A stretch of 64,000 bases of DNA from Trissonchulus latispiculum (lineage: Eukaryota > Nematoda > Enoplea > Enoplida > Ironidae). Positions 13,151 through 52,830 of the stretch are shown piece after piece. Position numbers and translations under genes: made by a program. Location of the stretch: the NCBI GenBank assembly GCA_030248195.1, contig JASAND010030764.1, positions 1-64,000 of the forward strand, given 5' to 3'. The notes under the pieces were generated by a model, which ran no database searches, was not told the origin of the DNA, and saw only the letters and a list, made by a program, of their open reading frames with translations. How positions within the stretch are numbered: position 1 is the stretch's first letter; each line of letters begins with the position of its first letter.

Positions 13151-13158
13151 AGATCATT

Positions 13159-14745: not shown

Positions 14746-14754
14746 CTACAGCTG

Positions 14755-14960: not shown

Positions 14961-15001
14961 GCGACCTGTGGTGCTGACTGCTGGCCTATTACTACTGCCG
15001 T

Positions 15002-16005: not shown

Positions 16006-16009
16006 TTAA

Positions 16010-19390: not shown

Positions 19391-19529
19391 AGGTTTTAAG
19401 AATTTCCCACAAAAACTTAAGATAGTATTAAATTTGACTACATAGATCAGTAGACAGTTTTTAATCCGTGTAAAGATATTGAATTTAAAAGCAAACTGGA
19501 ACGGCAAAGCATCATTTTAAACCATTTTG

Positions 19530-19544
19530 CACACTTCTTTTCAG
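19530..19544 (+). promoter_or_regulatory. Splice acceptor of the giant exon
   Basis: A CACACTTCTTTTCAG tract (pyrimidine-rich followed by AG at 19543-19544) immediately precedes the first convincing coding residues. The codon-preferred frame has no ATG near this point, so the protein must start in an upstream exon that I could not locate. Confidence 0.7.
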
Positions 19545-25500: not shown

Positions 25501-26267
25501 TGGACTTTATGATAATTGGGACGAGTTTGGGAAAAGAAGAAAAGGAACAGTCTCTTACCCTGAACTTTGGTGATATCGAGCCGAATCAGACACTAATTGC
25601 TCGGTGGTGGATGATTGCATCGTTGCGAGGAACGTTTTCAAACTACTCAGCCACGTTCGTGAACAACAATCCTCTCGGTGATCCAAAACTGTCCATCGTC
25701 GATTCTCTCAACATTCACGAATTGATACGTAACATCAAAATTTATGATCAGTCCATCGATGACGGGATCCTGGATTTTCTTGTCCGGGAACGAGTCGATG
25801 CCCATGTAACACCAACAGCTATTTACAGCAGCAAAGATATGACCAAAGTGTCTGTCAGACGTGAGTATACCACCAACTTTACAACGAAATTTTTAGACAC
25901 AGACCGTGTTGAATATTCAGTCTTGGTGAATGTGACGAACGATGCCGAATCTCTGAATGCCACTTGGTCCTATGTTAGATTTTTGACAAATTACGATAAA
26001 AACGACTATGTCGTTCCTGTTAGTTTTAAAAAGGCGCACAACAACAAAACCATATCGTTACCGTTGGAAAACGTTTGGTTCCAAACTGTCACTGTCGAGG
26101 AGTTGCTTCAAGGTCATTTTGTAGACCAGATCCATCCTGGACTAACCAATTACACAATTATAGCAGAGAAAGGAGAAGCAAATACGACACTCAAAGTGAT
26201 ACAGAAAACCATCAAAATTGACGATGACGTGAACACGTGGGACAACGTCACAAATGCAACAGGTTAG
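19545..26267 (+). CDS. Giant exon of a modular extracellular protein (HYR/EGF-like), with one in-frame TAG
   Basis: One frame is open for about 2,240 codons except for TAG at 23082-23084. The N-terminal ~650 residues are a Cys-rich, heavily N-glycosylatable ectodomain. Two HYR-like segments follow (about 21520-21760 and 21765-21985; motifs DNEPPVF, WKVTDEAGNTA, WSVTDPCNNTG), then a six-cysteine EGF-like module (about 21990-22095, ending GTCNCFSRYSGPNC), then repeated Ig-like beta domains. Dibasic RQKR (about 23937-23948) and RRKR (about 24442-24453) flank a Gly-rich, Cys-rich insert and look like furin sites; a helical segment and more beta domains follow. No membrane segment is visible. The frame closes at TAG 26265-26267, but ACAG-GTTAGC at 26259-26268 could instead be a splice donor. 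Signal peptide and start are upstream. The family is uncharacterised to me; a secreted matrix or adhesion protein is inferred. Confidence 0.8.
23082..23084 (+). other. In-frame TAG inside the giant exon
   Basis: TTG-TAG-ATA interrupts a repeat-like beta domain. The same frame continues at once with ITNEGRVEAKNLKIILPP, which parallels YNITNHGLIRAERVNFTLP in the next domain, so nothing is missing. A short intron is unlikely, because the nearest GT..AG would be 15 bp. Candidates are a nonsense allele, a base-call error, recent pseudogenisation or readthrough. Confidence 0.85.
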
Positions 26268-33826: not shown

Positions 33827-34436
33827 GGACTTACTACTCCGGGCAATGGTCTCAGTTTTCAATCCAAATTAAAACAAAAACGTAAAAATATTTATTATAT
33901 GTTGATTTTTAATTTTATTTTATTTAGGTAATTAAGCAAAAATTTTAAAGTAGATTGTCCATTTTTTCATGCCATACCAGATAGTTTGAGCAAATTTGAT
34001 TTAATTCTATTCGGATATTAAATAAACTGAAATGCTCCGCGGATATGAAACCAGGACGCCCCGGAATTAAACAGAGTGCAGGCAACTGTCTGCTTTAATT
34101 AGATATGAGCAGGATTTGAAGAGGAGTAAACCGGCGGGGGAAGTCACCGCGGAACCGGATTTCCTAGCATTGATATAGCAATAGCACACCTTTATGAGTG
34201 GGTTCAGGCATTAGGCACTGCTGTCCATGCACACGCATGGACTAGGCAAAACACCTAAAAGCTCCAGCAGGAATGCAAAAGCACACAACCGGTCTTAATA
34301 TTGCCTAAACTATACGTAGTTACATAGGGGTATATAAACATTTTACTAAACTCGACGTCGGGATAATGCTCCTTTTAGGGGCCGACTTGTTAATTTTGGT
34401 TTGAGTTTCAAGTTTGGTGTCTCTGCTCTGCAGCAT
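33827..34436. other. Interval without a recognisable gene
   Basis: Single-copy AT-rich sequence between the foldback element and the large palindrome. No feature supported. Confidence 0.4.
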
Positions 34437-34659
34437 CTGTGCCTAAACACTACAAAGTACGAATGGGTATGGCAGCTAGGTTGTTTTTCAGATTTCTCAC
34501 AACTCATGCAAGCAATTGGAAAGCGGCTTTATGCACACATTTCTGAAAAAACTGTTGAGGGAAATTTTAAGTTTTGAACTTAGCCATTTTAGTAGCTAAA
34601 AAATGGCGGTTCTAGAATAGCTGCAATTTCAAGTGTTAAAGATGGATGTAAAGTAAATT

Positions 34660-35715
34660 TGCTGCATTACAAATTGTATTTTTCAAAGAAACCGTGAATA
34701 TTGCAAAGGAACCAGTTCGTCCTGTATCAGCTGCAGTATACTAATCATTAAACTAGATATGGCTAATGGAAATGTGCTCGTCCTATGATTTCAAGACCAA
34801 TCATTGACAATCAGAACCTGTGAGAATTGAAAATATAAATATATATGTTTGGGAAATACTTGCAAGATTTAATGGCACCAGCGGAAATCTATTAATTTTC
34901 ATGTCGAATCAAGTTAAGCGTAAAGACGTTGCAAATTGTTATACAGTTTCTAATTATACTATCAATCAGTTTATTGTAAGAGTTTTCAATTAAACTATCA
35001 ATCAGTTTTATGTAAAATTATGTTCAACTGGAACCAAATGTTGAAAATGGCATTATCAGATTAAACGCATGATAAAATTATTTTCAAATTATTGCAATCA
35101 ATGTCATCCTAAATGGCGGTTCTAGAAAAGCTGCAATTTCAAGTGTTAAAGGTAGATATAAAATAAATTTGCTGCATTACAAATTATGTTTACAAGAAAC
35201 TGGTTCTGGATCAGCTGCAATTTCATGTGTTAAAGATGGGTGTAAAGTAAATTTGCTGCATTACAAATTGTATTTTTCAAAGAAACCGTGAATATTGCAA
35301 ACGAACCAGTCCGTCCTGTATCAGCTGCAGTATACTAGTCATTAAACTAGATATGGCTAATGGAAATGTGCTCGTCCTATGATTTCAAGACCAATCATTG
35401 ACAATCAGAACCTGTCAGAATTGAAAATATAAATACATATGTTTGGGAAATACTTGCAAGAGTTAATGGCACCAGCGGAAATCTATTAATTTTCATGTCG
35501 AATCAAGTTAAGCGTAAAGACGTTGCAAATTGTTATACAGTTTCTAATTATACTATCAATCAGTTTATTGTAAAAGGGTTTGCAATTAAACTATCAATCA
35601 GTTTTATGTAAAATTATGTTCAACTGGAACCAAATGTTGAAAATTGCATTATCAGATTTAACGCATGATAAAATTATTTTCAAATTATTGCAATCAATGT
35701 CATCCTAAATTAGTC
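34660..35715 (+). repeat. Tandem ~600 bp element segments with a recurrent short frame
   Basis: Two diverged units share AAAGAAACCGTGAATATTGC and a frame reading ENINIYVWEILARFNGTSG and NQVKRKDVANCYTVSNYT. The same frame is found at 37160-37350 (+), 39425-39640 (-) and 51345-51535 (-). It is short, has no start context and is interrupted after about 60 codons. I do not recognise it; it is probably a decayed gene segment of the element. Confidence 0.6.
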
Positions 35716-35845
35716 TTTGCGGTTTCTAACAGTTACGAAATGGTTCAGTTTCAAATGAAATAATTAGAACTCAAACACCAAACATCAAATATTATTATTT
35801 CAAGCATCAAACATCAAACATCATTATTTGAAACGAAACAATCAG

Positions 35846-36138
35846 TATTCGCCACATACAATAGTATCAAAGTCCTGCAAGCTATAGTACTTAAATTTAT
35901 CCATTTTATATGCTTCTTTACATTCTTCGACAGGATCCAATCCATGGCTATTAAAATACTCTGTATATTGATCAAAAATACATTGCAATCCATTGTCGTC
36001 CAGGAGCTACTGCAAGATCAGTATTGAGAACCAAACATGCCGGTCTAGCCTTTATGACAGGTAATTGATCACTCGGAAATACCCCCAGGAAGCATCTTTT
36101 AACCGAAGAATTCCTTGTTAAAGTTTCTAGACTCTAGA
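35846..36138 (-). pseudogene. Adenain-like protease fragment, copy 1
   Basis: The minus strand carries the same protease-like fragment as 38919-39212, with stops between short open stretches. Readable motifs are FLGVFPSDQLP, LVLNTDLAV, FNSYGLDP and TIVCGEY. Where Polinton and adenovirus-type proteases have a catalytic His before Trp, this copy reads PGRQW. It ends at GGCGAATA, where a terminal repeat begins. Confidence 0.5.
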
Positions 36139-36156
36139 GTTAAATCTCTCGACTAT

Positions 36157-36626
36157 TCATATTGTGTAGTCAAAGAACGGAGTCCGACTCTGATCGATGG
36201 ATATTAAGTTATCAAATTCTCCATATACGATGATTTTCAGAGGAGTTGGAGTTGAGTGGTTCCTTAAGTTGCATATATGGAGATAGGTCACCTCTAATGA
36301 ACTCCATTGCTCCCCCATCCACACAATCTGCTATCAAAGCAAATACAAAAACTGTGTATCATTTTATATTCATCATAAGAAATATGGATCCCTCTATCGC
36401 TTTTAGCTAAATTGATCACTTCAGATAGATACATGATAGTGTACCGGAACTTGTTCCAGTTCATTTTCATAGGATGCTTAGGAATGTATTCATCTCCACA
36501 CTTTAAAGATAATTCACTAATGTTACATTTTTCAAACTGGGACGGATGCTTGGTAAAAGAACCAATGAATGCTTCGGAATCGACCATAAACATGACTACC
36601 CTTCTAGGAAGTTGACCGGAAAATAT
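36157..36626 (-). pseudogene. Polinton-type major capsid protein C-terminal fragment, copy 1
   Basis: The minus-strand frame reads GQLPRRVV, then MFMVDSEAFIGSF and CNISELSLKCGDEYIPKHP. It shifts frame near 36345 and carries on to a natural-looking end at TGA 36157-36159 after FFDYTI. The pattern (GQLP+R, D-x-AF-x-GS, I-V-Y-x-EFDN-I-I-D) is characteristic of the double jelly-roll capsid family of Polintons and adintoviruses (annotated in animals as F54H12.2-like). Only the C-terminal third is present. Confidence 0.6.
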
Positions 36627-36848
36627 CTAATTTTCCACGATTGTTTGAGACTTTGGTGCAATATGTCGGGTTACGATTTTGATAAGTCGAACAGGATATT
36701 TTGCTGTATTGTTGTTTCTTAAAATCTTTTCGAAGTTAAATTCTTAAATCTTAAATTCTTACAAACTAATAAATGTGATGCTTATAGTATTTTATCTGAA
36801 GTGTTGTAATGTATGTCATACGTTGAAAAAATAAAGAAAACGAAGAAA

Positions 36849-36902
36849 ATCGTAACGGTTGCCTAGCCGTCTGATGAGGCGCTGAGCCGGGGCCGAAACG
36901 GT
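36849..36902 (+). ncRNA. Type III hammerhead ribozyme, copy 1
   Basis: All conserved parts are in order. Stem III 5' strand is ATCGT, followed by the cleavage nucleotide A (GUA). Stem I is ACGG/CCGT around an 8 nt loop. The core CTGATGA is followed by stem II GGC/GCC with an 11 nt loop and core GAAA. Its last A starts the stem III 3' strand ACGGT, which pairs ATCGT with one G-U. Stem III is the open end, hence type III. The predicted cut lies after A36854. The site is on the strand opposite to the neighbouring capsid fragment and 223 bp beyond it. Confidence 0.8.
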
Positions 36903-37019
36903 AAATTGCAGCTATTTTGTAGTACTCAAAATATGCGTTATTGCCTTTAAAAGAGAAAATGAACCAAATGTAACAGAAAAACTATCACTAAAATCAGTTT
37001 TAAATATTCATTACACCTG

Positions 37020-37550
37020 CAACCTGTATTTTTCAAAGAAACCGTGAATATTGCAAACGAACCAGTCCGTCCTGTATCAGCTGCAGTATACTAATCATTA
37101 AACTAGATATGGCTAATGAAAATGTGCTCGTCCTATGATTTCAAGACCAATCATTGACAATCAGAACCTGTCAGAATTGAAAATATAGATACATATGTTT
37201 TGGAAATACTTGCAAGAGTTAATGGCACCAGCGGAAATCTATTAATTTTCATGTCGACTCAAGTTAAGCGTAAAGACGGTGCAAATAGTTATACAGTTTC
37301 TAATTATACTATCAATCAGTTTGTTGTAAAAGAGTTTTTAATTAAACTATCAATCAGTTTTATGTAAAATTATGTTCAACTGGTACCAAATGTTGAAAAT
37401 GGCATTATCAGATTAAACGCATGATAAAATTATTTTCAAATTATTGCAATCAATGTCATCCTAAATGGCGGTTCTAGAAAAGCTGCAATTTCAAGCGTTA
37501 AAGGTAGATATAAAATAAATTTGCTGCATTACAAAGTATTGACCTTTACG
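37020..37550 (+). repeat. Third partial copy of the ~600 bp element segment
   Basis: It matches the units at 34660-35715, including the VWEILAR-type frame, and lies in the spacer of the palindrome. With 37550-39215 it forms a ~2.1 kb block whose reverse complement is at 49487-51600. Confidence 0.7.
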
Positions 37551-37739
37551 TCTGACCTTTCCATTTCTCTTTAATACAGACCAACGTCTCAGCAGGAGAG
37601 CAAATAAAAGGATTAATTTTCTCTTCCACTTTTGGGGGCCCACCAGATTCCTACAAGCCAACACCAAACACGAAATATTATTATTTCAAGCATCAAACAT
37701 CAAACATCATTATTTCAAACGAAACAATCAGATTTCTTG

Positions 37740-37747
37740 TATAAATA
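37740..37747 (+). promoter_or_regulatory. TATA box in the element leader
   Basis: TATAAATA is followed by GGGATGCATCAACTATCAG, just inside the left terminal repeat and oriented toward the capsid fragment. The same block on the minus strand at 50957-50964 belongs to the copy at 49.4-51.0 kb, so the promoter-like region is a conserved part of the family. Confidence 0.5.
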
Positions 37748-38149
37748 GGGATGCATCAACTATCAGAGAATCAGTTACAAAGGTTACCAACAAAATGCTG
37801 TTCATCTATCCTGTTTTTTGCATATACTTGTAATAGAGATAGTAGCAGATACTTGAATTAGCCAATTAACACGTGGGTTAACATAATGTCAACATCAGTC
37901 AGTAGTTAGTAAGCATGTGCAGATCCTCATTTGGGGCTACCGATTTTTGTGACTATTTGTTCGGTTTTTAATGCAGTTTTTACGAGCTAACGCTTTGTAA
38001 GGTTTTAGGGATTGCTATTTGTTAATAATTTGCTGGTGTAATGAATTTTTAAAACTGATTTTAATGATATTTTTTCTGTTACATTTGGTTCATTTTCTCT
38101 TTTAAAGGCAATAACGCATATTTTGAGTAGTACAAAATAGCTGCAATTT

Positions 38150-38203
38150 ACCGTTTCGGCCCCGGCTCAGCGCCTCATCAGACGGCTAGGCAACCGTTAC
38201 GAT
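38150..38203 (-). ncRNA. Type III hammerhead ribozyme, copy 2
   Basis: This is identical, base for base, to copy 1 over the 54 nt ribozyme, on the minus strand. It lies between the TATA-containing leader and the capsid fragment, antisense to both. Confidence 0.8.
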
Positions 38204-38425
38204 TTTCTTCGTTTTCTTTATTTTTTCAACGTATGACATACATTACAACACTTCAGATAAAAGACTATAAGCATCACATTTATTAGTTTGTAAGAATTTA
38301 AGATTTAAGAATTTAACTTCGAAAAGATTTTAAGAAACAACAATACAGCAAAATATCCTGTTCGACTTATCAAAATCGTAACCCGACATATTGCACCAAA
38401 GTCTCAAACAATCGTGGAAAATTAG

Positions 38426-38898
38426 ATATTTTCCGGTCAACTTCCTAGAAGGGTAGTCATGTTTATGGTCGATTCCGAAGCATTCATTGGTTCTTTTAAC
38501 AAGCATCCGTCCCAGTTTGAAAACTGTATTAGTGAATTATCTTTAAAGTGTGGAGATGAATACATTCCTAAGCATCCTATGAAAATGAACTGGAACAAGT
38601 TCCGGTACACTATCGTGTATCTATCTGAAGTGATCAATTTAACTAAAAGCGATAGAGGGATCCATATTTCTTATGATGAATATAAAAATGATACACAGTT
38701 TTTGTATTTGATTTGATAGCAGATTGTGTGGATGGGGGAGCAATGGAGTTCATTAGAGGTGACCTATCTCCATATATGCAACTTAAGGAACCACTCAACT
38801 CCAACCCAAAAGGGGTGGAAATCATCGTATATGGAGAATTTGATAACTTAATATCCATCGATCAGAGTCGGACTCCGTTCTTTGACTACACAATATGA
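38426..38898 (+). pseudogene. Polinton-type major capsid protein C-terminal fragment, copy 2
   Basis: It opens after TAG 38423-38425 with IFSGQLPRRVV, then MFMVDSEAFIGSF at 38459. It breaks near 38700 at CAGTTTTTG, where the homologous continuation lies in the -1 frame, and ends at TGA 38896-38898 after FDNLISIDQSRTPFFDYTI. The family product is the double jelly-roll capsid subunit of Polinton/adintovirus particles. The other two copies share both the upstream stop and the frame break, so the fragment was already defective before it was multiplied. Confidence 0.65.
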
Positions 38899-38918
38899 AT
38901 AGTCGAGAGATTTAACTC

Positions 38919-39212
38919 TAGAGTCTAGAAACTTTAACAAAGAATTCTTCGGTTAAAAGATGCTTCCTGGGGGTATTTCCGAGTGATCAATTACCTGTCA
39001 TAAAGGCTAGACCGGCATCTTTGGTTCTCAATACTGATCTTGCAGTAGCTCCTGGACGACAATGGATTGCAATGTATTTTTGATCAATATACAGAGTATT
39101 TTAATAGCTATGGATTGGATCCTGTCGAAGAATGTAAAGAAGCATATAAAATGGATAAATTTAAGTACTATAGCTTGCAGGACTTTGATACTATTGTATG
39201 TGGCGAATACTG
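38919..39212 (+). pseudogene. Adenain-like cysteine protease fragment, copy 2
   Basis: It begins about 20 bp after the capsid stop. One frame holds FLGVFPSDQLP, LVLNTDLAV and PGRQWIAMYF before a stop; a shifted frame continues with EYFNSYGLDP and TIVCGEY, then stops at the terminal repeat. Maturation proteases of adenoviruses and Polintons use a His in a G-x-HW context, an Asp in a D-S-x-G context and a Cys in a CG-x-YC context. Here His is Gln, Asp is Asn, and the catalytic Cys is lost with the truncation. Capsid followed by protease is a plausible virion-gene order. Confidence 0.55.
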
Positions 39213-39299
39213 ATTGTTTCGTTTCAAATAATGATGTTTGATGTTTGATGCTTGAAATAATAATATTTGATGTTTGGTGTTTGAGTTCTAATTATTTCA

Positions 39300-40165
39300 T
39301 TTGAAACTGAACCATTTCGTAACTGTTAGAAACCGCAAAGACTAATTTAGGATGACATTGATTGCAATAATTTGAAAATAATTTTATCATGCGTTTAATC
39401 TGATAATGCCATTTTCAACATTTGGTTCCAGTTGAACATAATTTTACATAAAACTGATTGATAGCTTTAATTGAAATCTCTTTTACAATAAACTGATTGA
39501 TAGTATAATTAGAAACTGTATAACAATTTGCAACGTCTTTACGCTTAACTTGATTCGACATGAAAATTAATAGATTTCCGCTGGTGCCATTAAATCTTGC
39601 AAGTATTTCCCAAACATATGTATTTATATTTTCAATTCTCACAGGTTCTGATTGTCAATGATTGGTCTTGAAATCATAGGACGAGCACATTTCCATTAGC
39701 CATATCTAGTTTAATGATTAGTATACTGCAGCTGATACAGGACGAACTGGTTCCTTTGCAATATTCACGGTTTCTTTGAAAAATACAATTTCTAATGCGG
39801 CAAATTTACTTTACACCCATCTTTAACACATGAAATTGCAGCTGATCCAGAACCAGTTTCTTGTAAACATAATTTATAATGCAGCAATTTTATTTGATAT
39901 CTACCTTTAACACTTGAAATTGCAGCTATTCTAGAACCGCCATTTTTAGCTACTAAAATGGCTAAGCTCAAAACTTAAAATTTCCCTCAACAGTTTTTTC
40001 AGAAATGTGTGCATAAAGCCGCTTTCCAATTGCTTGCATGAGTTGTGAGAAATCTGGAAAACAACCTAGCTGCCATACCCATTCGTACTTTGTAGTGTTT
40101 AGGCACAGATTGAAATTGCAGCTATTCTAGAACCGCCATTTTTTAGCTACTAAAATGGCTAAGCT
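39300..40165 (-). repeat. Inverted element segment, right side of the palindrome
   Basis: Reverse complement of the 34.5-35.7 kb segment, including the VWEILARFNGTSG frame at 39425-39640 (-) and the AACCGCCATTTTTAGCTAC block, which is repeated 175 bp further on (39950 and 40130). Homology to the left arm ends at GTAGTGTTTAGGCACAG (40109). Confidence 0.7.
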
Positions 40166-42250
40166 GTCGGCTAAGCGGTCCTCGCCTCGTTTGGTTTTTC
40201 TAAGGAAATCTTGTCTGTTTGGATTGGTCATCCAGCCCCATGGGATGCTATTGAAATTGTTTACGTTTTGATGTCGCGCGCTGATTTTTCTATGACTCAA
40301 CTTTTGCAAATTATTTTTCCAGGTTTGACTTTTCCGGAGCAAGGGGGCGTCCCGCCTGTCGGCACTCCATCTGCAGGCTTGGGATTGTCTCCCGACCCTA
40401 TTTTTGCTCCTACACCGCGCACAAATCGACCTTCTCGTTCATCTTCAGTCCCGGCTTCACGTACTACGGTACGTTTAGCTCGGACGAGGCCTCGTCCATT
40501 TCTGGACAACCTGGGACTTCCGGATCTGCGGAGGCTCAGGAGGCCTCACAGCCTGTTTCGAGTGATCCTAGGTATGCTAAACGGGCTTTTCCACTGCATA
40601 AAGATGAACATCTTCCTCCTTTAAAATTGGACATTCCCTTGCAGACCTTTTCATTGAAGGATCCTGCAACAATTCCACCGTCTCATACGATTCGGTGGCC
40701 TGACGAACAGTTTTTGTCTTTTGCGAGCGTGAATCAGCAGTTTGAGTGTTCGGCAGCCCCTTGGGAACATCCTGCAAATTTGAAGCAAGTTTTGTATAAG
40801 TATTCTGCGCGTTATCTAGTGGGAAAACCGGTTCCTCGTTTTCATGCGAATCCACCGCCGCACATTACGCATCGTAGCGGGTTTGCTTTAAATCGGGAAA
40901 TCAAGTCTATGAAACCTCCGTCGCCGGACCTTACCACTGATGACGGTGCCCTTTTGGGGGCTCCTAAGTACGAAGGTCCGCAGGAAATTGACCCGCATTA
41001 TCATCAAGCAGTTTGGTCAGTTATGCTAAATGACCGCAGGGTTTACTCGGAATTTGAGTGGCAGGTTGTGACCTTGCCTGATTTTTCCTCAAAAGTGGAT
41101 CCTACACTTATGAATCCTTATTTCACGCATTCTTTCAAATATTGGGATAATTATTTGAGGACTTTGAAATATGCTCCATTTTCACTGACTGATTTTGCAA
41201 TGGAAAAGTATTTCAATATTATAAAGACTCTTTTTCCTGAGGCAAGTCCTGTTATCACATGGGATAAATTGGAGCCTTTTTCGCATCCTTCCTATCGCAT
41301 TCAGTTGGAAGAACCTGAATATTGGAAGCTTTCTATCAAATTTCCAGCTATTTTGCGCGATGGTGAAATTCTTTTTGAGTCTTTTCAAGTTGTTGGTTTT
41401 GCTCCTTACAAAGTTGCCGCATTAGCTGATCTTTTTCGCGATTTTTTCCATTTCTCAATATCTATCCATCTGTTTAGCGCTTCCAGCAGTCGGAAGATTT
41501 GCTTAGAGTCTGGTCAGTAAGTTCTAAGAAAATGGTTCAGGTGGCGAAGGAAGTCACGGATGAGTGTTTGGGACATGTTTTGATGCGTGCATCAAATTTT
41601 AATTACTTTCACCCGATTGCTAGTTTTCAAGGTGCTTATGACCCGGCTTCTAATATGTTTCGTCTTGAGCCGAAAAAGGTTCCGGGTGCAAACGGGTGGG
41701 TCGAACTGTGGGGTTTATATTTTCAAACATCTGAGCAAGCTTATCAATTCCGAAAACTTTTCTTTTTCGCTTGCTGGCACGCCCCAGCCGAGGCCTGCGC
41801 GCAGTATTTGAATCCATTCTACTGCAAATTTGCAGCTGAACAAATTTTGGGCTGGTTGCCACCTGATTCGGTTATTCGCAAAATGTGGCACGGCAAGGAT
41901 ATGCATGTACCGGCGTTTGTTAGCTTGAGGTTCTTCGTGCTAAGGCCAAATCCTGACCAGATTTTGTAGCTTTCTTGCGCGACTCTGGTTGCCGACTGCT
42001 GGTTGAGGCAACCCATGACCCTTATTTGGGAATTGGGTTGAACAAAAACCAATTGAACAATTTGTCGCATAATCAGATTATCAGCGAGGTTATCAGCGTG
42101 CATAAGGAACAAAATCGCAACTGGTCAGGAAAGGTTATGATGATTTTGCGCGCCGAATTGTTTCCAAATTTGAATCGTGAAATGGAAGATCTTTGGAATG
42201 AGCGGCAGCAGGCCCACCGGGCGGCGATCGGTCGGATCGTCCCGCCCTGA
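40155..42250 (+). pseudogene. NADAR-domain protein, decayed ORF
   Basis: Four overlapping plus-strand frames form one protein-like path: 40211-40624 (Pro/Ser/Arg-rich), 40627-41520 (about 300 residues, unrecognised, Pro/aromatic-rich), 41499-41969 and 41975-42250. The last two match a NADAR (DUF1768/YbiA-like) domain: SNFNYFHPI near the start, W-x-TSEQAYQF+K in the middle, and LLVEATHDPYLGIGL ... NWSGKVMMILRAEL at the end, with the usual E and D-x-x-x-G-x-G positions intact. NADAR enzymes are N-glycosidases or ADP-ribosyl hydrolases acting on NAD-derived substrates or ADP-ribosylated guanine. Frame changes near 41480-41500 and 41925-41970, plus a TGA in the best C-terminal frame, show decay or sequence errors. 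It sits between repeats of the palindrome element, so it may be cargo of a mobile element. Confidence 0.7.
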
Positions 42251-45200
42251 GTTCTCAGGCAGTTTTCTTGTGTATATTCTTGCCCCTTTCTCTACGGGTT
42301 GGTGCTAAAATTTGGTGCTTGAAAGTCTTTTTACCTTTTTCTTTCATTTTTTACTGTTTTATCATGGGGGGTGGGGGGTTTTTCCGTTTTCTTTTCTTTT
42401 TACTATTTTTACATTTAGCTTTTATCTGCTGATTCTACTTGATTTCTTGATGTATGTCGTTCTCGTTTTGATTCTTTTAGATGATTTCTTTACAAATGAA
42501 TTGGAAAGTCCTTTGATAAATTTCTCTTCTTTTTCGGTTTCTTGATTTAACTTATAAATTCTTGTTCACTTGAGTATTCTATTTATTGGATCCTTTGAGT
42601 TTTAATGATTCAAAAATTATCTTCTTTTTTCTTTGATTCTAGTACGTATAAATATTTCTCCTTGATACTTTAAAGTCAACTTTCTTGACTATTTCTTGTT
42701 TGAATTTTCATTTTCTCACTGGAATAAACTTTAATCTCTGCTTTTCGTTGCTTTCTCTAAATTCCACACAGCAGATTGGACTTTTTCTTTTTAACCTTTT
42801 TACAACTTTTAACTTTTGGTGCTCCTACCTTTTTCACACTCTCTTTTGGAGTGTTAAGTTGCGGGCCGCTCCGGTCTCCGCACACCGGGTGAGGTGGGCC
42901 GCACGCTCCTTAACATTCTTTTTCCTTTTTGGTCCCGTTTCATTTAGTTTAGCCTTGAGATTCTCTTTGATGAGCACAGGCCTATGGGATCTCTCCTCCG
43001 CTAAGCGGGGCTGCGTCTCTCCCATTGGTTCTGGAGCTACTAAAGTCATAGGTGGGGCTGTAACTATGTATCGGCCATATTTCGTTTTGCTTAATTTTGC
43101 CATTTGCTAATTATGATTCTTTCGTGCTTTATTTGATTGCCTTAATTTTTGTTTTTGTGTGTTTTAGCTAACCTTTTGTCTGCTGTGCCGCGGTGCCGAC
43201 CCCCCATCCTCAGTGCCGGGTGTGCTCTCCAGGAATTGTGTCAGCTGGTTTGGGTTGGATCCTACTGGCCATTTGCTTCGGCGCTGGGTCTGGCGCGGTT
43301 GGGTACCGCCGTGACTGGTCGGTGGTTGTAGGTGCTGGGTCCCTACTGGGTTCTCTTCTTGCCAGGCCTTTGACTTGCTTGCTACGGCCATGCTCTGGTC
43401 CTGGATTGTTTGGTTGGGCGGCCGAGGATTTGTTTCGGTCTGGTTGGCCTTCGGTTCTGACTCTGGGCCGCACAATGTTTGGTGTGGCAGCCATTTGGAT
43501 TGGCACCATGTGGTGGTGGCCGCTCTTTGGCCACCTCTTTGGACTTTTTGGGGCGCCTTGCGTCCTTTGCCTTGATTCCATCTGGGATGGTGTCTGGCCC
43601 AGTGCTTTGCCTGTGGCTTTCCGGCCACCCTTCTGCGTCGGTGGGCATGCCTTGCCTGCTCACCTGTTCCATCTTGGAGCGCGCTGCTCTACTGGCCTCC
43701 TTGGTTTGGCTCTTTTGGACTTTTGGGGCGCTTTGCGTCCTTTGTTTGCTTCTCTGGTGACTGGGGCCATGGTCGTTCTGGTACCTGTGGCTCTCCTGCC
43801 TATTTTGCCGTGGGGCAGGCTTCTTCTGCCTGCTTCCGTCTGCCATCTTGCCGGCTCTTGGTCAGGTTTGGCCGTCGGTTTTCCGGCCTTTGGAAGGTTC
43901 GGGGGCCTATTGCCTCTGCCTTGTGGCCTTGTTGGTATGTGAACTTTTCCTGGTCTTCCTGCCGCCATGGGGTTGCTGGGCCAGGCGGTGCACGGCTTGC
44001 TTGGCCATAATTTGCGCCTGGTTCCAGTCCCGCTTGACTTTGGTCCTGGTTCGGTTGGGTTAGACTCAGTGGATTTTGACAGGAGACCCTTCGAGGCCTG
44101 GTACGGTTCGCTCTGGTAGGGTCCGGCTGGAGGGGTTTTTGGTTCAGTGATTGTTTGTCCGGAATTGCATTGTCTGCGGTGCTGGGGAGTATACCGCCAG
44201 TGTCCCTTCCATCGCACACCTGTGACACTGTCCCCCCATCCTAATCTTGTGATTTTTGTGTTGTTGTTTAATCAGTGTCTTGGTGATTGGTATTTCTTTC
44301 GGGTTCTATTATATTGGTTGTGATTTGAAGGGAGGGAGCCGCAGGGATCAAATTCTAAAATTGGGGTTTCAGTTGATTACATTTTCTTTCTTTTTCGTCA
44401 GTGTGCCCGCCACCTCGGTATAGCCGTTGTAATCGTCGGTGTCGGTATAGCCAGTTTTTCACTATCACTTTTCTGTCTGTTTTGTTTTTCTACTAAAAGC
44501 GGTTACACGGTTTGTTCTTTCTTTGACATTTCAAATTTTCTTTGTTCTTTTCTTGAAAAACTGCAATTCTTTGATGACATCATTTCTTCTTGCCTTGTTC
44601 TTATTAACCTAGTATTTTTTTGTCTGGCATTGTATGTTCTACTTCATTCCATTATTGGCTGCTACAATTACATGTACAATTTTTGATTTCTTGCATTTTT
44701 GTTTGATATCTACATGCATAATAACTTTTCTTGTCATATCTATACATATTTACAATAGGGTCTTGTTCTCTTTTTCTGACTCTGTTTCCTGTCGGTGCAC
44801 CCTACTCTTTTGGTAGCTGGGTGATTTCGGGCGGGAATTTAAAAATTTTTTACGTAGGCTTTGAAGTAGGTAAGTAAGTTTTTGCAGTAGTTTGTCAAAA
44901 ATGTCTCGATTCAGTTTTATCGTTGGCCGGTTAGCATGTTAGAAAAGTTGTGTGCTCAACCGTGGTATGGTGTATGTTCACCACTTGTCGTTTCATTTTA
45001 TCCTTACGTAATTTTCACAAATGTTTTACCTTTACTAGTACCTAAGGTACCTGTGAGTAACATTCTTTTTATCGAGTTTTCTAACTGAGTGGACCCATCC
45101 GAGGCCGCCCGGGGCCAAAAGACGGGTATTATGTGAAGTTAGCACCGACAGGAAAGATATAAATTATATTCGAGTTGCTAAGCCTAAGTAAATTAGTATT

Positions 45201-45673
45201 GCATTTCGACAGACGTTCAATGATTTTACATCACTCCTGTCTAAATTCATAGGTCTGATTAGCTAATAGTTGTTATTCGCCATATTGGGTAGGCTTGTGA
45301 ACAGTTGTGGGTGTAAGTTGGCAAAGAAAGGTTGGGTAGTGACGCTTAGGTTCGATTTTGGGGTAATTAACATTGGGTTTTGGTCAAGTTTCCCTTGTCG
45401 CTCTGTCGGCTTCTGCCGGGCTTTTGCGGTTTGTTTTGGTATTTTGTCAAAGTTTATACGTTTGGTTAAAAATAATGTTTTGTATTGCTTTCGTCATCAA
45501 GTTTTGCTTAGAATTTAATAAACCGTTGTGATCGCCAAATTTATCCTTAGTCGGTCAGGATCCTCTGTTTCTCCAACATCACACACCACCGGTATTCACC
45601 TGTAGTCTAGTCTTATCCTAGTAGTCAAAAGTCACACAACAGCATTTTTACTAAGATTCATATAGTCAAACTC
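42251..45673 (+). other. Long T-rich and A-poor tract downstream of the NADAR ORF
   Basis: No convincing gene. 42300-42830 is very T-rich, like a 3' untranslated region; 44230-45500 is again T-rich. AATAAA at 45517-45522 may end a transcript. The right edge is where homology to the hammerhead-bearing repeat resumes. Confidence 0.45.
43190..44230 (-). other. A-depleted block with overlapping open frames
   Basis: The plus strand is poor in A and rich in G, T and C, so stop codons are rare on the minus strand. All three minus frames are open for 120-185 codons with Pro/Gln/Lys/Arg-rich products, and two plus frames are also open with Trp/Leu/Gly-rich products. A near-repeat TTTTTGGGGCGCCTTGCGTC / ACTTTTGGGGCGCTTTGCGTC occurs at about 43547 and 43720. 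I think openness follows from composition and do not call a gene. Confidence 0.4.
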
Positions 45674-46112
45674 CACACTTGTATTGGCCAATTAACACGT
45701 GGGTTAACATAATGTCAACATCAGTCAGTAGTTGGTAAGCATGTGCAGATCCTCGTTTGGGGCTACCGATTTTTTGTGACTATTTGTTCGGTTTTTAATG
45801 CAGTTTTTACGAGCTAACGCTTTGTAAGGTTTTAGGGATTGCTATTTGTTAATAATTTGCAGGTGTAATGAATTTTTAAAACTGATTTTAGTGATAGTTT
45901 TTCTGTTACATTTGGTTCATTTTCTCTTTTAAAGGCAATAACGCATATTTTGAGTACTACAAAATAGCTGCAATTTACCGTTTCGGCCCCGGTTCAGCGC
46001 CTCATCAGACGGCTAGGCAACCGTTACGATTTTCTTCGTTTTCTTTATTTTTTCAACATGTAACATACATTACAACACTTCAGATAAAAGACTATAAGCA
46101 TCACATTTATTA
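45674..46112 (+). repeat. Partial copy 3 of the ribozyme-bearing repeat
   Basis: It matches 37845-38280 from GCCAATTAACACGTGGG to CACATTTATTAG, then stops abruptly at the end of the TBP-like frame. No capsid fragment follows. Confidence 0.75.
45977..46030 (-). ncRNA. Type III hammerhead ribozyme, copy 3
   Basis: It differs from copies 1 and 2 by one substitution in the stem II loop (GCTGAACC instead of GCTGAGCC on the ribozyme strand). All core and stem positions are kept. Confidence 0.78.
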
Positions 46113-46113
46113 G

Positions 46114-46455
46114 TTAACCCAACAATGAAAAGTTTTCCATTATGAATAGTCTAATAGTACCTCCTTTCATTTTTGAGATAATTCCACTGCAAAGTTCCAG
46201 CTCATAACACACATTAGTGCAGACCTTTCTTAGCTTTTCGTACAGAGCTTCCAGGTTCACTTCATATCCCAGATGATGAGATACAACCAAATTGCAAACT
46301 GTTTGTTCCTTCACAGATAGTTTCAAAATTTTGCTCAAGACAGAAATGCAAGTATTAGCATCTTGTTCAGATTTAGCTCCCAGACATAGAAAACTTCCAG
46401 TAGAATACAACAAAATGTGCAAGGTTTTAGAGATAGTATGGCACCACTAAACAAT
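46114..46455 (-). pseudogene. TATA-binding-protein-like fragment
   Basis: A minus-strand frame reads LHILLYSTGSFLCLGAKSEQ, a short helix, NLVVSHHLGYEVNLEAL, then CYELELCSGIISKMKGGTI and RLFIMENFSLLG before TAA. This follows the end of the first and most of the second TBP core repeat (hydrophobic strand then TGAKSE; N-x-V-x-S then LE; YE-E-L-x-x-G-I-x-x-M; F-x-x-h-x-LLG). TBP binds the TATA box in all three nuclear polymerase systems, and divergent relatives occur in large DNA viruses. The frame is blocked by TAG about 12 codons upstream of LHILLY. Its end coincides with the repeat junction at 46113, so both ends are broken. It could be a viral or element gene, or a host TBP-related pseudogene. 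Confidence 0.5.
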
Positions 46456-46695
46456 ATAGGATAATAAACTGCATCGGAAATCGTAAGTAAGTCAAGCTTC
46501 GAAGTCAAGTTTCGAGTCAAATTTGACTTTCAAAGCCAAATTGACGATCTTCATAGCCCTGCTCTGACAAGTCTGTAGAGGTGGATAGTGCGTATAAATT
46601 CGTAATTTATCAACTAACTATTTTACAATGGAATCATTCTTTTCACTCCTTTTTCTTAAATAGTCTATGATTTCATTAAAACTCCAACCTCCCAA

Positions 46696-46850
46696 CTGTC
46701 GCGATGAACGCGATTTCAACCAAGAAAACTGAAACTTTGATAAAGTAGAAGAAGATTTGAACACATACAAAAACCTAAGTACAAACGTTCTCTATAAAAG
46801 TAGTAACTTTCATTACGAAAACCTACTATATACGGTTTTCCACAACGTGC
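46696..46850 (+). repeat. BEL-associated 3' segment, copy 1
   Basis: GATGAACGCGATTTCAACC through CTACTATATACGGTTTTCC is repeated in the same orientation at 49224-49374, where it directly follows the BEL/Pao pol remnant. It may be a piece of the long terminal repeat or 3' untranslated region. Confidence 0.65.
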
Positions 46851-47135
46851 AATGAAACGTCTAAAGCACAAAAGGAACTGTTCTGTGGCCATATCTTCTA
46901 TAACTTCTAGATGAACGGCTCTTGTTACCGCACAGGTAAACAGACAAATCCAAACTTTGATTATTCTCGAGTGATACACATACATGGGTCCAATATAATC
47001 CAGTCCCGTGTATGTAAATACAGGGCATTCTTCTAGCCGGAATCTAGGAATTTGTGGAATTTCAGAGTACTTGTAAGATCCTCCTTACCATCTGCGGCAG
47101 ATTAGGCACTTTTTCAAGACATTCTTCGTGACAGC
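46851..47135 (-). pseudogene. BEL/Pao integrase fragment, inverted duplicate
   Basis: The minus strand repeats part of the integrase at 47940-48190, around CAVTRAVHLEVIEDM and FLLCFRRFIAR. Here the reading frame runs through Phe-Arg-Arg, whereas the plus-strand copy has one extra T at that point. The fragment starts at the junction near 47135 with the plus-strand pol. Confidence 0.7.
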
Positions 47136-47149
47136 ACGTCCATGGACGT

Positions 47150-49169
47150 CCAGAACCGCAGCACGTCCAGAACCGCCTCAATGAAATAAGGAAGTTAGAA
47201 GGTGCAGAATTCAAATATGTTCCTTCAGAGGAAAACCCAGCGGACTGCCCAACCAGAGGAAAAACCGTTGAAGAATTACAGGCAGAATTTTGGTGGAATG
47301 GACCACAATGGCTGCAAAGATTTGAATTAGATTGGCCTGATCAAGATATGGATTTCGAACCCGACAGCATTCGAGAAAATGATGTCACACCTAGTACTAC
47401 AACTACAAAGACGATGATAGTGCCGAAGGTAACGACACCGATGGTTATCAACTATGAAAATTTTTCAACCTTGTCGAGATTATTACCACAACAGCTTGGG
47501 TACTACGATTCAAGAATAATCTACTTAGTAGTGCAAAGCAGTCAGGAACATTAACCAAGGTCGAGGTTAACGATGCCAAGACATTTGGAAAAACTAATTC
47601 AGCAGCTTTACTTTTCGGAAGTGATAGATGAACTTACAAGGAAAGAACAGTACACCAGTAGTATGGTTAAGAAACTACGACTCTTTTTGGACGATAAAGG
47701 AGTTATTGGATGCGGAGGAAGAATAGCATATTACACTCTGACATTCGAATCGAAATTTCCGGAGCTGCTTCCTAAGACCGACTTCTTCTCTTTCCTCATC
47801 ATTGAAGACTTTCATCGAAGATTCGGCCATGCTGGAGTATATCACACCTTGGCTGATTTGAGGAGTGAATATTGGATTCCCCATGGACGTGCTGTCACGA
47901 AGAATGTCTTGAAAAAGTGCCTAATCTGCCGGAGAGGGGAAGGAGGATCTTACAAGTACTCTGAAATGCCACAAATTTCTAGATTCCGGCTAGAAGAATG
48001 CCCTGTAGTTACATACACGGGACTGGATTATATTGGACCCCTGTATGTGTATCACTCGACAATAATCGAAGTTTGGATTTGTCTGTTTACCTGTGCGGTA
48101 ACAAGAGCCGTTCATCTAGAAGTTATAGAAGATATGACCACAGAACAGTTCCTTTTGTGCTTTTAGACGTTTCATTGCACGTCGTGGAAAGCCATCAATG
48201 TTAATCTCGGACAATGCTACAATATTTAACTTAGGATGTCAAACAGTGAAGCAGATCTGGAAACCGGGAGTTGGAAATGCCGAACTAGAAGGATATATGA
48301 GTTCAAAAGGTATTGATTAGAAGTTTTTACCTGAATATTCTCCATGGATGGGAGGATTTTACGAACGACTTGTTGGAGTTGTGAAGCGATGCCTAAGAAA
48401 GATCATCTGCAACCGCCGCTTGACCTTGACGCAATTGTGGACTGTGGTAACGGAAGTAGAAGCTATCGTGAACTCACGACCATTAACATTTGTAGACAAC
48501 GAGGACGGGATGTTTGATAAAGTTTTGTCTCCTTCGGATTTTTTAACTCCTCTCCGAGGAAACGGAATTCCGGACGTGCCTAATCCTGAAACTGAGTACA
48601 GACCAGGTATGCCCAGTTCTTCCGAACAGCTTCTGAAACGCTGGCACAAAGGTCAGAGACTCATTAATTCCTACTGGGAAATGTGGAGAAGAGAATATCT
48701 TCAAAGTCTCCGAGAAAGAAATAACCGCTCACGTATGCGAGGAGAAGTGGACATATTCCCCATGGTGAATGATGTTGTCCTCATCAAGGAAGATGGTCAG
48801 AAAAGAGGGCAATGGAAATTAGGAAGAATACAAGAACTGGTGATCAGTTTTGATAGTAAGACAAGAGCTGCCATCGGTCAAACTCGTTTTGGAAAGACAA
48901 TACAAAAATCGCTAAAACTTTTGTATCCCCTAGAAACAGGAAAGGCTTCCCGAAACGAGCAAGGTGACAAAGGACCTAAAGGAAAGGAAAGAAGCCTGCC
49001 TGAGGTGCATGCAGATGGGGTACGGCTATGCCTGGGCCTACTGAGAGTCCCGAATTTGGTGGTGTTCCGGATGGATCGGGAACGAAGGGGAAAGGGCCTG
49101 CTCAAGACAATAAAGCACCAACTTCAAGGATTGCCGATCCAAATAAAGGAAATTGTGCTCACGCCATAG
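47150..49169 (+). pseudogene. BEL/Pao retrotransposon pol remnant (RNase H linker and integrase)
   Basis: 47190-47320 holds the post-RNase H signature (KYVPSEENPADCPTRGK ... FWWNGPQWLQ). From 47573 the integrase begins: an HHCC zinc module (FHRRFGHAG ... CLICRR, about 47807-47932), catalytic Asp in TGLDYIGP (about 48017), a second Asp in the segment after 48190, and Glu in GGFYERLVG (48351 on). The C-terminal part continues through VNSRPLTF and WRREYLQSLRER to TGK. Integrase joins retroviral-type cDNA to host DNA. Breaks: an extra T at about 48163 that creates TAG, and TAG at 48318-48320 where a Trp is expected. Reverse transcriptase, protease, gag and 5' repeat are missing. This is a dead copy. 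Confidence 0.8.
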
Positions 49170-49223
49170 CAGACGGAAGGCCGCTAAGAAGGCAAGAAAG
49201 CAAATTCGGGAGATTGCCGCTTG

Positions 49224-49374
49224 GGAATGTCGCAATGAACGCGATTTCAACCAAGAAAACTGAAACTTTGATAAAGTAGAAGAAAATTTGAACACATACA
49301 AAAACCTAAGTACAAACGTTCTCTATAAAAGTAGTAACTTTCATTATTCAAACCTACTATATACGGTTTTCCAC
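49224..49374 (+). repeat. BEL-associated 3' segment, copy 2
   Basis: Same sequence as 46696-46850, 55 bp after the pol stop. The two copies bracket the BEL remnant and its inverted fragment. Confidence 0.65.
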
Positions 49375-49438
49375 AAGTTTACAGAACAGTCGTTTGATAT
49401 ATCTATTTTGCTTTTTGACATTACATTTATTCTTTAAT

Positions 49439-49783
49439 CTACCTGCTCTGTAAGAAAATAGTCACCGACCTTTTTATCAAAAAATAAATACAATATTCGC
49501 CACATACAATAGTACCAAAGTCCTGCAAGCTATAGTACTTAAATTTATCCATTTTATATGCTTCTTTACATTCTTCGACAGGATCCAATCCATAGCTATT
49601 AAAATACTCTATATATTGATCAAAAATACATTGCAATCCATTGTCGTCCAGGAGCTACTGCAAGATCAGTATTGAGAACCAAACATGCCGGTCTAGCCTT
49701 TATGACAGGTAATTGATCACTCGGAAATACCCCCAGGAAGCATCTTTTAACCGAAGAATTCTTTGTTAAAGTTTCTGGACTCT
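49439..49783 (-). pseudogene. Adenain-like protease fragment, copy 3 (longest)
   Basis: This is the only copy that continues past the repeat junction. After TIVCGEY it reads CIYFLIKR and then about ten more residues to a stop. That supplies the CG-x-YC catalytic-cysteine context of the adenain-like family and supports the assignment. The upstream part carries the same frame breaks and the same Gln in the expected His position as the other copies. Confidence 0.6.
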
Positions 49784-49804
49784 AGAGTTAAATCTCTCGA
49801 CTAT

Positions 49805-50280
49805 TCATATTGTGTAGTCAAAGAACGGAGTCCGACTCTGATCGATGGATATTAAGTTATCAAATTCTCCATATACGATGATTTCCACCCCTTTTGGGTT
49901 GGAGTTGAGTGGTTCCTTAAGTTGCATATATGGAGATAAGTCACCTCTAATGAACTCCATTGCTCCCCCATCCACACAGTCTGCTATCAAATCAAATACA
50001 AAAACTGTGTATCATTTTTATATTGATCATAGGAAATATGGATCCCTCTATCGCTTTTAGTTAAATTGATCACTTCAGATAGATACACGATAGTGTACCG
50101 GAACTTGTTCCAGTTCATTTTCATAGGATGCTTAGGAATGTATTCATCTCCACACTTTAAAGATAATTCACTAATGTTACAGTTTTCAAACTGGGACGGA
50201 TGCTTGTTAAAAGAACCAATGAATGCTTCGGAATCGACCATAAACATGACTACCCTTCTAGGAAGTTGACCGGAAAATAT
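49805..50280 (-). pseudogene. Polinton-type major capsid protein C-terminal fragment, copy 3
   Basis: It is nearly identical to copy 2, with the same start after TAG, the same frame break beside CAGTTTTTG and the same FFDYTI end. Substitutions are few (for example DQYK for DEYK), so the duplication is recent or maintained by conversion. Confidence 0.62.
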
Positions 50281-50502
50281 CTAATTTTCCACGATTGTTT
50301 GAGACTTTGGTGCAATATGTCGGGTTACGATTTTGATAAGTCGAACAGGATATTTTGCTGTATTGTTGTTTCTTAAAATCTTTTCGAAGTTAAATTCTTA
50401 AATCTTAAATTCTTACAAACTAATAAATGTGATGCTTATAGTCTTTTATCTGAAGTGTTGTAATGTATGTCATACGTTGAAAAAATAAAGAAAACGAAGA
50501 AA

Positions 50503-50556
50503 ATCGTAACGGTTGCCTAGCCGTCTGATGAGGCGCTGAGCCGGGGCCGAAACGGT
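50503..50556 (+). ncRNA. Type III hammerhead ribozyme, copy 4
   Basis: It is identical over 54 nt to copies 1 and 2. As in the other copies with a capsid fragment, it is ~223 bp from the capsid fragment on the opposite strand. The predicted cut lies after A50508. Confidence 0.8.
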
Positions 50557-50649
50557 AAATTGCAGCTATTTTGTAGTACTCAAAATATGCGTTATTGCCT
50601 TTAAAAGAGAAAATGAACCAAATGTAACAGAAAACTATCACTAATATCA

Positions 50650-51600
50650 GTTTTAAAAATTCATTACACCTGCAAATTATTAACAAATAGCAATCCCTAA
50701 AACCTTACAAAGCGTTAGCTCGTAAAAACTGCATTAAAAACCGAACAAATAGTCATAAAAATCGGTAGCCCCAAACGAGGATCTGCACATGCTTACCACC
50801 TACTGCTGATGTTGACATTATGTTAACCCACGTGTTAATTGGCTAATACAAGTATCTGCTACTATCTCTATTACAAGTATATGCAAAAAACAGGATAGAT
50901 GAACAGCATTTTGTTGATAACCTTTGTAACTGATTCTCTGATAGTTGATGCATCCCTATTTATACAAGAAATCTGATTGCTTCGTTTGAAATAATGATGT
51001 TTGATGTTTGATGCTTGAAATAATAATATTTCGTGTTTGGTGTTGGCTTGTAGGAATCTGGTGGGGCCCCCAAAATTGGAAGAGAAAATTAATCCTTTTA
51101 ATTGCTCTCCTGCTGAGACGTTGGTCTGTATTAAAGAGAAATGGAAAGGTCAGACGTAAAGGTCAATACTTTGTAATGCAGCAAATTTATTTTATATCTA
51201 CCTTTAACACTTGAAATTGCAGCTTTTCTAGAACCGCCATTTAGGATGACATTGATTGCAATAATTTGAAAATAATTTTATCATGCGTTTAATCTGATAA
51301 TGCCATTTTCAACATTTGGTTCCAGTTGAACATAATTTTACATAAAACTGATTGATAGTTTAATTAAAAACTCTTTTACAACAAACTGATTGATAGTATA
51401 ATTAGAAACTGTATAACAATTTGCAACGTCTTTACGCTTAACTTGATTCGACATGAAAATTAATAGATTTCCGCTGGTGCCATTAAATCTTGCAAGTATT
51501 TCCCAAACATATATATTTATATTTTCAATTCTCACAGGTTCTGATTGTCAATGATTGGTCTTGAAATCATAGGACGAGCACATTTCCATTAGCTATATCT
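50650..51600 (-). repeat. Leader, terminal repeat and flanking segment of element copy 3
   Basis: Reverse complement of 37140-38090. It holds the TATA box (50957-50964), one terminal repeat (50972-51045) and the VWEILARFNGTSG segment (51345-51535). Homology stops at about 51600, directly at the LINE fragment. Confidence 0.7.
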
Positions 51601-51604
51601 AGTT

Positions 51605-52830
51605 TAATGATTAGTCTAGTCAGTGGTGTTCCACAGGGTACTGTACTTGGTCCCTTCTTGTTCCTGATTTACGTAAATGACATACCTGAAGTAATTGTCA
51701 ATTCTAGCATTAGTCTTTATGCTTGTCATGGACGGTCAGGCCACCGTTTCACTAACATTCTTATAAAGTCGCTTACTATTAGGCTATAAGCGCATTTTTA
51801 TAAGCGGTTTATGAGCGCTTTATAAGATCTTGTAAAGTGTTGCACAAAACTCTTGTATGTCGCTTATAATTTTTGTCCTTATAAGCGCTTATAGCTGTCA
51901 AATTCTAACTATTTCTACGCTTTTACGAGACCTATATGCTATATATTGTTATTTCGATTGAAAACACATCATGGACATGACAATACATATTCATATGTTT
52001 CAAATATATATTCATCATTATTGGTGAGGTATTATTCAAATAGTTTAAACCTATATTATTATTATTAGTAAATTTTTTAAAAATTTGAAGTTACTAAACA
52101 TTTACATACGTAGGTTAATTTCGCCAGTTGTTAATCAAGTAATCAGCCTATATGCTGTATATAATACTATTGATCTAATACTTTAATACCAATCAATTTT
52201 GTAATTTTGTTTGTTTTATATAATTCAAATTTCTTCCGTTGATACGCTTGGGAGAACTTAGACGTTAAAGTAGTGCATTTGCTGTGCCCATTGACTTTAG
52301 TCAATAAGCGTAAGCAGAGAACATGTGAAGGATTTGTAGTTATAAGCGCGTTATAAGTGGTCCTTCCTGCTTATAAAATTTATAAGAAATCTCAACTTAC
52401 AAGACTTTCGTGAAACGGTAAAATTTATAAGCTTGTAAAATTGACACTTTTTATAAGTTTATAGCGCTATAAGCGCTTCGTGAAACGGGGCCCAGGACCT
52501 TGAGGTGGTGGATCATGCAGTAGACCTTGGAATTACACTCTCATCCAATATGAAGACATCTATACACTGTAAAATTGCCCAAAAAGCAAATAAAATTTCT
52601 GCCTGTATTTTTAGATCATTCGAAACTAGAAAAAGACAATTTTTAATTGAAATGTTCAATACTTATGTCAGGCCTATTTGGAATATAACTCACCAGCATG
52701 GTCACCGTTTTTATTAAAAGATATCGACATGACAGAAAATGTCCAGAGAAGATTTACTAAGCGTATGCCCGGTATGCAAGCAATTACCTATAAGCAACGG
52801 TTTGAGATATTAGGTCAACAAGGTAACTAT
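51605..52830 (+). pseudogene. LINE reverse transcriptase fragment, split by an insertion
   Basis: 51605-51730 encodes [21 protein letters not shown], a diagnostic reverse-transcriptase block, and stops just where the YADD catalytic motif should complete. After the insert, 52500-52830 continues with VDLGITLSSNMKTS, KANKISACIFRSF, NTYVRPI, a one-frame shift at about 52677, and EYNSPAWSPFLLKDID ... VQRRFTKRMPG. This is the thumb and C-terminal part of a CR1/Jockey-type LINE. About 80 residues around the catalytic aspartates are absent. Confidence 0.75.
51737..52494. mobile_element. TTATAAGCGC-rich element inserted in the LINE
   Basis: CAGGCCACCGTTTCACTAA at the left and TTCGTGAAACGGGGCCCAG at the right form imperfect inverted ends. 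The interior repeats TTATAAGCGCTTATAA-like palindromes near both ends, with AT-rich sequence in the middle. It is probably a non-autonomous DNA transposon; a target duplication was not clear. Confidence 0.55.

Follow-up and report, generated by a model that had tools for sequence, protein, structure and literature searches.

The four hammerhead motifs found in the window (the whole 64-kb stretch of DNA that was analysed) are read here as decayed copies of a type III hammerhead ribozyme borne by Polinton/Maverick elements, in which it is predicted to cut outward-read transcripts at their 3' ends. We give this joint reading a probability of about 0.6. Relatives of the ribozyme elsewhere in the genome have the type III structure, carry base pairs changed on both sides, are placed at the terminal inverted repeats of the elements and face outward. 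The features of the window are collected in Table 1.

Hammerhead motifs and element remnants in the window

The sequence-only reading had reported four hammerheads with a complete conserved core and three stems, three of them identical. All four positions and strands were verified. The window copies have the CTGATGA and GAAA core, a TA cut site and all three stems; three are identical over 58 nt, and the copy at 45977-46030 is one loop II base off. In a self-comparison the four are segments of one repeat family, approximately 97-98% identical. Four independent ribozymes were rejected on this ground, and the copies give no independent evidence because all are segments of one repeat. One of 58 ribozyme columns is variable versus 13 of 203 flank columns (two of these being end gaps), counts too small to indicate constraint. 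In a search of the 734-Mb assembly the exact window core (up to 3 mismatches) occurred at these four sites only. The window is the beginning of contig C20859 in this assembly.

In the window copies helix I is ACGGU/GCCGU and helix III AUCGU/ACGGU, including a single G-U pair; helix II consists of GGC/GCC followed by an inner part past a G-G mismatch. They carry UGAGCC where relatives carry UGUGGC, and the loop-loop partner is lost. The hammerhead is not the minimum-energy fold: free folding gives -20.2 and -18.6 kcal/mol, and enforcing the hammerhead gives -16.2. For a window copy the computed pairing probabilities are low in helices I and II (0.003-0.22) and 0.31-0.99 in helix III. Because the pseudoknot is absent and helix II is shorter, the window copies are probably slow or dead as ribozymes.

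A check against the Rfam hammerhead model RF00008 had been proposed. The full model (1-54) was matched, with scores of 26.0-26.1 bits that are below the gathering value of 48.5. E-values over 4227 families were 0.29-0.32 in E-value mode, and no family was listed when the window was searched at gathering scores. By themselves, the 26-bit scores are weak evidence.

Table 1. Features of the window: positions, strands and supporting matches
Feature	Positions	Strand	Remarks
Foldback, inverted pair of deleted Polinton-like arms	34435..40165		97.7%, 35111-37022 vs 38030-39945
AATAAA	36830..36835	+	19 nt from its end to the copy A predicted cut
Copy A, type III hammerhead	36849..36902	+	RF00008 match, R2 73.4 bits; predicted cut 36854/36855
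Copy B, type III hammerhead	38150..38203	-	RF00008 match, R2 73.4 bits
Capsid gene C-terminal part, broken	38426..38895	+	87% to residues 391-459 of L055:7967-9343
Adenovirus-type protease, broken pieces	38922..39210	+	PF00770 via relative L055:9334-9846
Repeat piece with copy C, equals 37851-38288	45677..46115		97% identity
Copy C, type III hammerhead, on the strand of the TBP-like piece	45977..46030	-	RF00008 match, R2 70.3 bits
TATA-binding-protein-like (TBP-like) piece, directly upstream of copy C	46117..46446	-	PF00352, E 4.5e-11
Inverted copy of 37087-39215 with copy D	49487..51618		98% identity
Copy D, type III hammerhead	50503..50556	+	RF00008 match, R2 73.4 bits

The motifs are accompanied by remnants of an element. 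The foldback has an unmirrored centre of about 1 kb, and element-end motifs are present at 34591 (+) and 40137 (-). Its broken capsid gene consists of stop-free pieces in different frames (38426-38713 and 38692-38895), with further copies of the capsid piece at 36354-36626 (-) and 49990-50280 (-); the reference frame used for this piece matches PF21738. The protease piece at 38922-39080 is 80% identical over 51 aa to its relative, and the one at 39049-39210 is assigned on position only. The TBP-like piece shares 73% over 104 aa with L058:516-1079. Its junction with the ribozyme at copy C was considered as a chance event and rejected, the same junction being found in relatives. Copy C thus appears to keep the TBP-ribozyme end of the element, while copies A, B and D are best seen as putative deletion products in which the end with the ribozyme is joined to mid-capsid sequence.

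Other searches gave no lead: protein databases with a 411-aa ORF, the TBP piece and one capsid piece; viral-contig scans and tblastn against phages; and the PDB with the window capsid and protease pieces. An AlphaFold model of a capsid piece had a mean pLDDT of 48.1, and a Foldseek search with it returned nothing at E 0.001. A BEL/Pao-like piece is present at 47.6-49.2 kb of the window; BEL/Pao is an animal family, and on this basis the host is read as an animal. An animal LTR retrozyme borne by this piece was rejected, as the ribozymes are inverted and not direct.

Relatives of the ribozyme and their carrier elements

The relatives, 76-89% identical, make a better type III hammerhead than the window copies. 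A 283-bp query around copy A gave at least 40 matches in the assembly, with 40 of 415 candidates scored. Four of these 40 are the window copies and three align to the end of the query; the other 33 stop at query position 163-170, at or a few bases past the ribozyme's 3' end. The stems of the relatives have five pairs each, with helix III ACCGU/ACGGU and helix II GGCCC/GGGCC. Loop I contains GCC and loop II UGGC, so that GCC/GGC can pair as a pseudoknot. Helices I and II are closed by loops and helix III is open, as in the type III architecture.

These features are widely kept. In 42 of 45 loosely matched occurrences (from 44 loci, which overlap, so that sites are partly counted more than once) helices I and III have five pairs and helix II at least four. 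The GCC/GGC contact is present in all 42 of these helix-keeping occurrences, and the CUGANGA and GAAA core and UH cut site are likewise intact in 42/45. An intact ribozyme site was absent in 7 of 43 loci (L008-L054). The hammerhead was the best-energy fold in two of the four relatives folded.

Covariation was measured in an alignment of 16 distinct ribozymes chosen by hand. It omits L008, the degenerate L031, flank-only variants and the second sites of L041 (core deleted) and L046 (a single stem III letter differs); row L015 stops at the contig end and takes its last two letters, in unpaired columns, from L039, which has the same ribozyme. Standard pairs form in 96.9% of pair cells, versus 29.6-50.2% in slid controls and 95.4% in shuffled alignments, none of 500 of which reaches the observed value. 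The sequence-only reading had held that substitutions which break pairing without compensation would count against a ribozyme; in the relatives, three pairs are changed on both sides, a number reached by 10 of 500 shuffles. Two are in helix I (G-C to A-U) and one in helix II (C-G to U-A). Cells with both sides changed number six versus a shuffled mean of 1.3 (0/500 shuffles reach six). Two-sided variation is limited to few pairs, that in helix III is one-sided, and the count of pair types is not above the shuffles, 385 of 500 reaching it. The pseudoknot pairs hardly vary and covariation is silent on them. Core, helix architecture and paired changes in the relatives together support the type III assignment. 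Sequence exchange between the end repeats could preserve the motif without selection on the RNA.

All six loci of relatives given to Rfam matched RF00008, at 31.6-39.5 bits and with E-values over all families of 2.5e-3 to 1.5e-5. At the gathering score none of 18 loci was returned, and by that cut-off they are not members of the family.

The sequence-only reading had assigned the motifs to a mobile family with capsid and protease fragments. This was borne out, and by its genes and inverted repeats the family reads as Polinton/Maverick; a DNA polymerase was not identified. The capsid piece beside copy B has at least 150 matches, with 150 of 900 candidates scored, and many are open frames of 450-461 aa. 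A 459-aa frame of this kind (C7799) matches the double-jelly-roll family PF21738 (E 1.6e-5, 24.7 bits, curated value 27), and the next frame, which overlaps it, matches the adenovirus-type protease PF00770 (E 1.1e-3, 19.2 bits). In C21528 a protease (PF00770, E 5e-4, 20.2 bits, curated value 21.3) is followed by an overlapping TATA-binding-protein frame (E 4.6e-23) and then by the ribozyme on the same strand. The order capsid, protease, TBP, ribozyme on one strand is found in the relatives seen with these genes. In C10754, frames on the same strand as the capsid gene and farther inward include a piece of rve integrase (E 5.1e-7, 30.3 bits, curated 32.6) and a Chromo domain (E 3.9e-6, 27.1 bits, curated 25.1); ATPase matches are weak (Adeno_IVa2 E 0.029, Pox_A32 E 0.1). 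PDB searches with the full capsid and protease of relatives gave no lead. The TBP-like gene beside the ribozyme hints that the elements may also steer their own transcription.

The ends of the elements are CATTTTTTAGCTACT or close variants. One capsid-bearing element (C1679) is the only such case in which both ends were seen. It spans 1782-16141 (14,360 bp) and has 150-bp terminal inverted repeats that are 96% alike. One ribozyme per end, including the L013 site, lies within or at the inner edge of these repeats, and both face outward. At the non-capsid end the ribozyme begins about 45 nt past two outward-read frames (844 and 420 aa) with a single stop separating them. These frames gave only weak C2H2 and Endonuclease_7 matches and no DNA polymerase was seen in them; a PDB search with the 420-aa frame gave no lead. 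Five short elements (C7879, C11841, C14841, C3033 and C4333) also have outward ribozymes at both ends. A 6-bp target duplication is typical of Polinton/Maverick elements. Such direct repeats (CGCGCA, GGAGCC, GACGAT and ATGATT) flank four of the six two-ended elements (C7879, C11841, C14841 and C4333) and are absent at C3033 and C1679.

The placement of the ribozyme relative to the end is regular. In 51 of 54 rows (six being window copies, and some representing one site seen in two loci) A(A/G)TAAA ends 14-21 nt before the predicted cut. The element end was located within 260 nt in 29 rows, and in all of them it lies 119-142 nt past the cut.

Predicted role and its rivals

On these placements, each terminal inverted repeat carries an outward type III hammerhead shortly downstream of the gene read outward last in that half. 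This gene is TBP-like at the capsid end and, in C1679, a long uncharacterised frame at the other. An RNA read outward from either half would then cut itself inside the usual poly(A) window. The cut may make or limit the 3' ends of element messages and would keep them from running into host DNA. Whether the ribozyme also acts as a 3'-end former in its own right, so that messages end without the host cleavage machinery or in competition with it, we regard as a tentative extension that falls somewhat short of even odds.

Two other functions had been proposed for the motifs, and neither is supported. Against processing of antisense RNA, the relatives with capsid, protease and TBP genes have the ribozyme after them on the same strand; the best explanation for its antisense position relative to the capsid in the window is a deletion, which probably fused the end to the mid-capsid gene. 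The excision of circular RNA is not supported because it needs two ribozymes on one strand, and in all six elements with both ends seen they are on opposite strands, facing apart. The same opposition makes very improbable a retrozyme-like cycle, known for hammerheads in animal retroelements and plant retrozymes (PMC7229834, PMC7761336, in the parts available), in which the ribozymes set free a unit-length RNA for circularisation and copying back, and the elements are moreover bounded by inverted repeats, with the 6-bp duplications in four of six.

The nearest rival to 3'-end cutting is a damper that regulates the amount of RNA and does not form a normal 3' end. The ribozyme would cut capsid-protease-TBP messages before or instead of polyadenylation and hold expression low except under special conditions. 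The placement data are the same for both readings; a hammerhead cut leaves the upstream RNA without a poly(A) tail, and hammerheads in mammalian 3' UTRs have been reported to keep expression low. However, the ribozyme is not tied to one gene, because short elements that lack these genes have it too, as does the opposite end, and we consider the damper unlikely. Less probable still is a role at the level of DNA, with the stems of the end repeats serving as hairpins in replication, packaging or integration and the likeness to a ribozyme incidental or inherited. The motif does lie within the terminal repeats and is kept by short elements, but the unpaired core letters are retained while the stems change in pairs, the relatives score with RF00008, and some capsid-bearing copies are followed by a different sequence. 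The most remote of these explanations is a chance likeness in the window repeat. It can draw on the 26-bit score and on a strict type III descriptor with 30 matches in 3.912 Gb of Markov-1 sequence. This equals 4.9e-4 per 64-kb window on both strands, a rate that matters once windows are read by the thousand. The null was built on the mean dinucleotide composition of the window and may underestimate chance where an island is GC-rich. The relatives, which fit the hammerhead better and change in pairs, make chance very unlikely, and 3'-end cutting by a Polinton-borne ribozyme remains the preferred reading.

Comparison with known systems

In the literature consulted, the hammerheads known from mobile elements in animals are those of retroelements and RNA circles, and animals seldom have type III; the types were judged against PMC7229834, PMC7936874, PMC3088659 and PMC7761336, all in part. 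We found no report of a hammerhead in a Polinton in open-licence full text, which covers few subscription papers. None is described in the portions available of PMC6431247 and PMC11071296, and a term search of PMC11071308 was empty. The association therefore appears new, provisionally. If true, it would tie small ribozymes to virus-like DNA elements and make it simple to test whether poly(A) cleavage can be replaced or blocked by a ribozyme.

The Polinton/Maverick elements of the literature share the jelly-roll capsid, adenovirus-like protease, rve-type integrase and terminal inverted repeats, and differ in that a TBP-like gene and hammerheads in both end repeats go unmentioned in the available part of PMC6431247. 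The closest ribozymes are atypical type III hammerheads described from HDV-like RNAs of toad and termite and from the genomes of termites and dipterans (PMC7936874, in part). They too have a 5-bp first stem of helix I, and their loop I GCC(R) pairs with loop II (Y)GGC, a contact that the GCC/GGC here resembles. Their long helix I includes an internal loop and an additional hairpin, whereas that of the present ribozyme is short. The termite copies are isolated motifs without recognisable ORFs, in contrast to the Polinton end repeats described here, and such elements could be a home for the orphan type III hammerheads of insect genomes (PMC7936874, in part).

Penelope-like elements and Terminons are also animal mobile elements with hammerheads in their terminal repeats or 3' ends, but they are retroelements and the hammerheads are minimal type I (PMC6431247, PMC7229834, both in part). 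Plant LTR retrozymes are likewise mobile elements whose terminal repeats carry a type III hammerhead; their repeats are direct, with two ribozymes on one strand and a circular RNA intermediate (PMC7229834, PMC7761336, in the parts available). The elements here, by contrast, are DNA transposons with inverted repeats and ribozymes on opposite strands.

Sequences beside the ribozyme copies

The TATAAATA motif stands at two places in the window, each time with the terminal-repeat module on one side and the ribozyme on the other, and is directed toward the capsid piece, through the ribozyme antisense. On visual inspection, a fragment of a LINE-type reverse transcriptase starts where the repeat that holds ribozyme copy D ends. 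The foldback (the inverted pair of deleted Polinton-like arms) is flanked at its right end by two overlapping open frames of 411 and 163 aa; neither has a Pfam match, and a protein database search returned no homolog of the 411-aa frame.

Location of the features described in this part
Feature	Position	Strand
Inverted duplication	6273-8267 vs 13148-14976	
1187- and 1060-aa frames	19521-26267	+
TATAAATA motif	37740	+
TATAAATA motif	50957	-
411- and 163-aa frames	40285-41969	+
BEL/Pao-like piece	46697-49376	
LINE-type fragment	51619-51690	+
TATA-binding-protein (TBP) gene	L058:516-1079	
C2H2/NADAR-like frame	L060:3564-4187 (C10754)	-

Other features of the window

The BEL/Pao-like piece carries Integrase_H2C2 (E 5.1e-11) and DUF5641 (E 1.8e-14) domains, is edged by a 149-bp direct repeat and contains an inverted piece. 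The 1187- and 1060-aa open frames share one reading frame with a single stop between them, and their EGF and carboxypeptidase-regulatory-like matches are weak and under the curated scores. The arms of the inverted duplication are 93-95% identical, with direct repeats nested within.

Genes of the Polinton relatives

At L060, a related locus of the same assembly, one open frame inward of the integrase frame combines C2H2 zinc fingers with a NADAR-like region (E 1.2e-7, under the curated score). A TBP gene is found within the Polinton family at the relative L058, and the solved structures nearest to the TBP piece of the window, directly upstream of ribozyme copy C, are those of archaeal TBPs.
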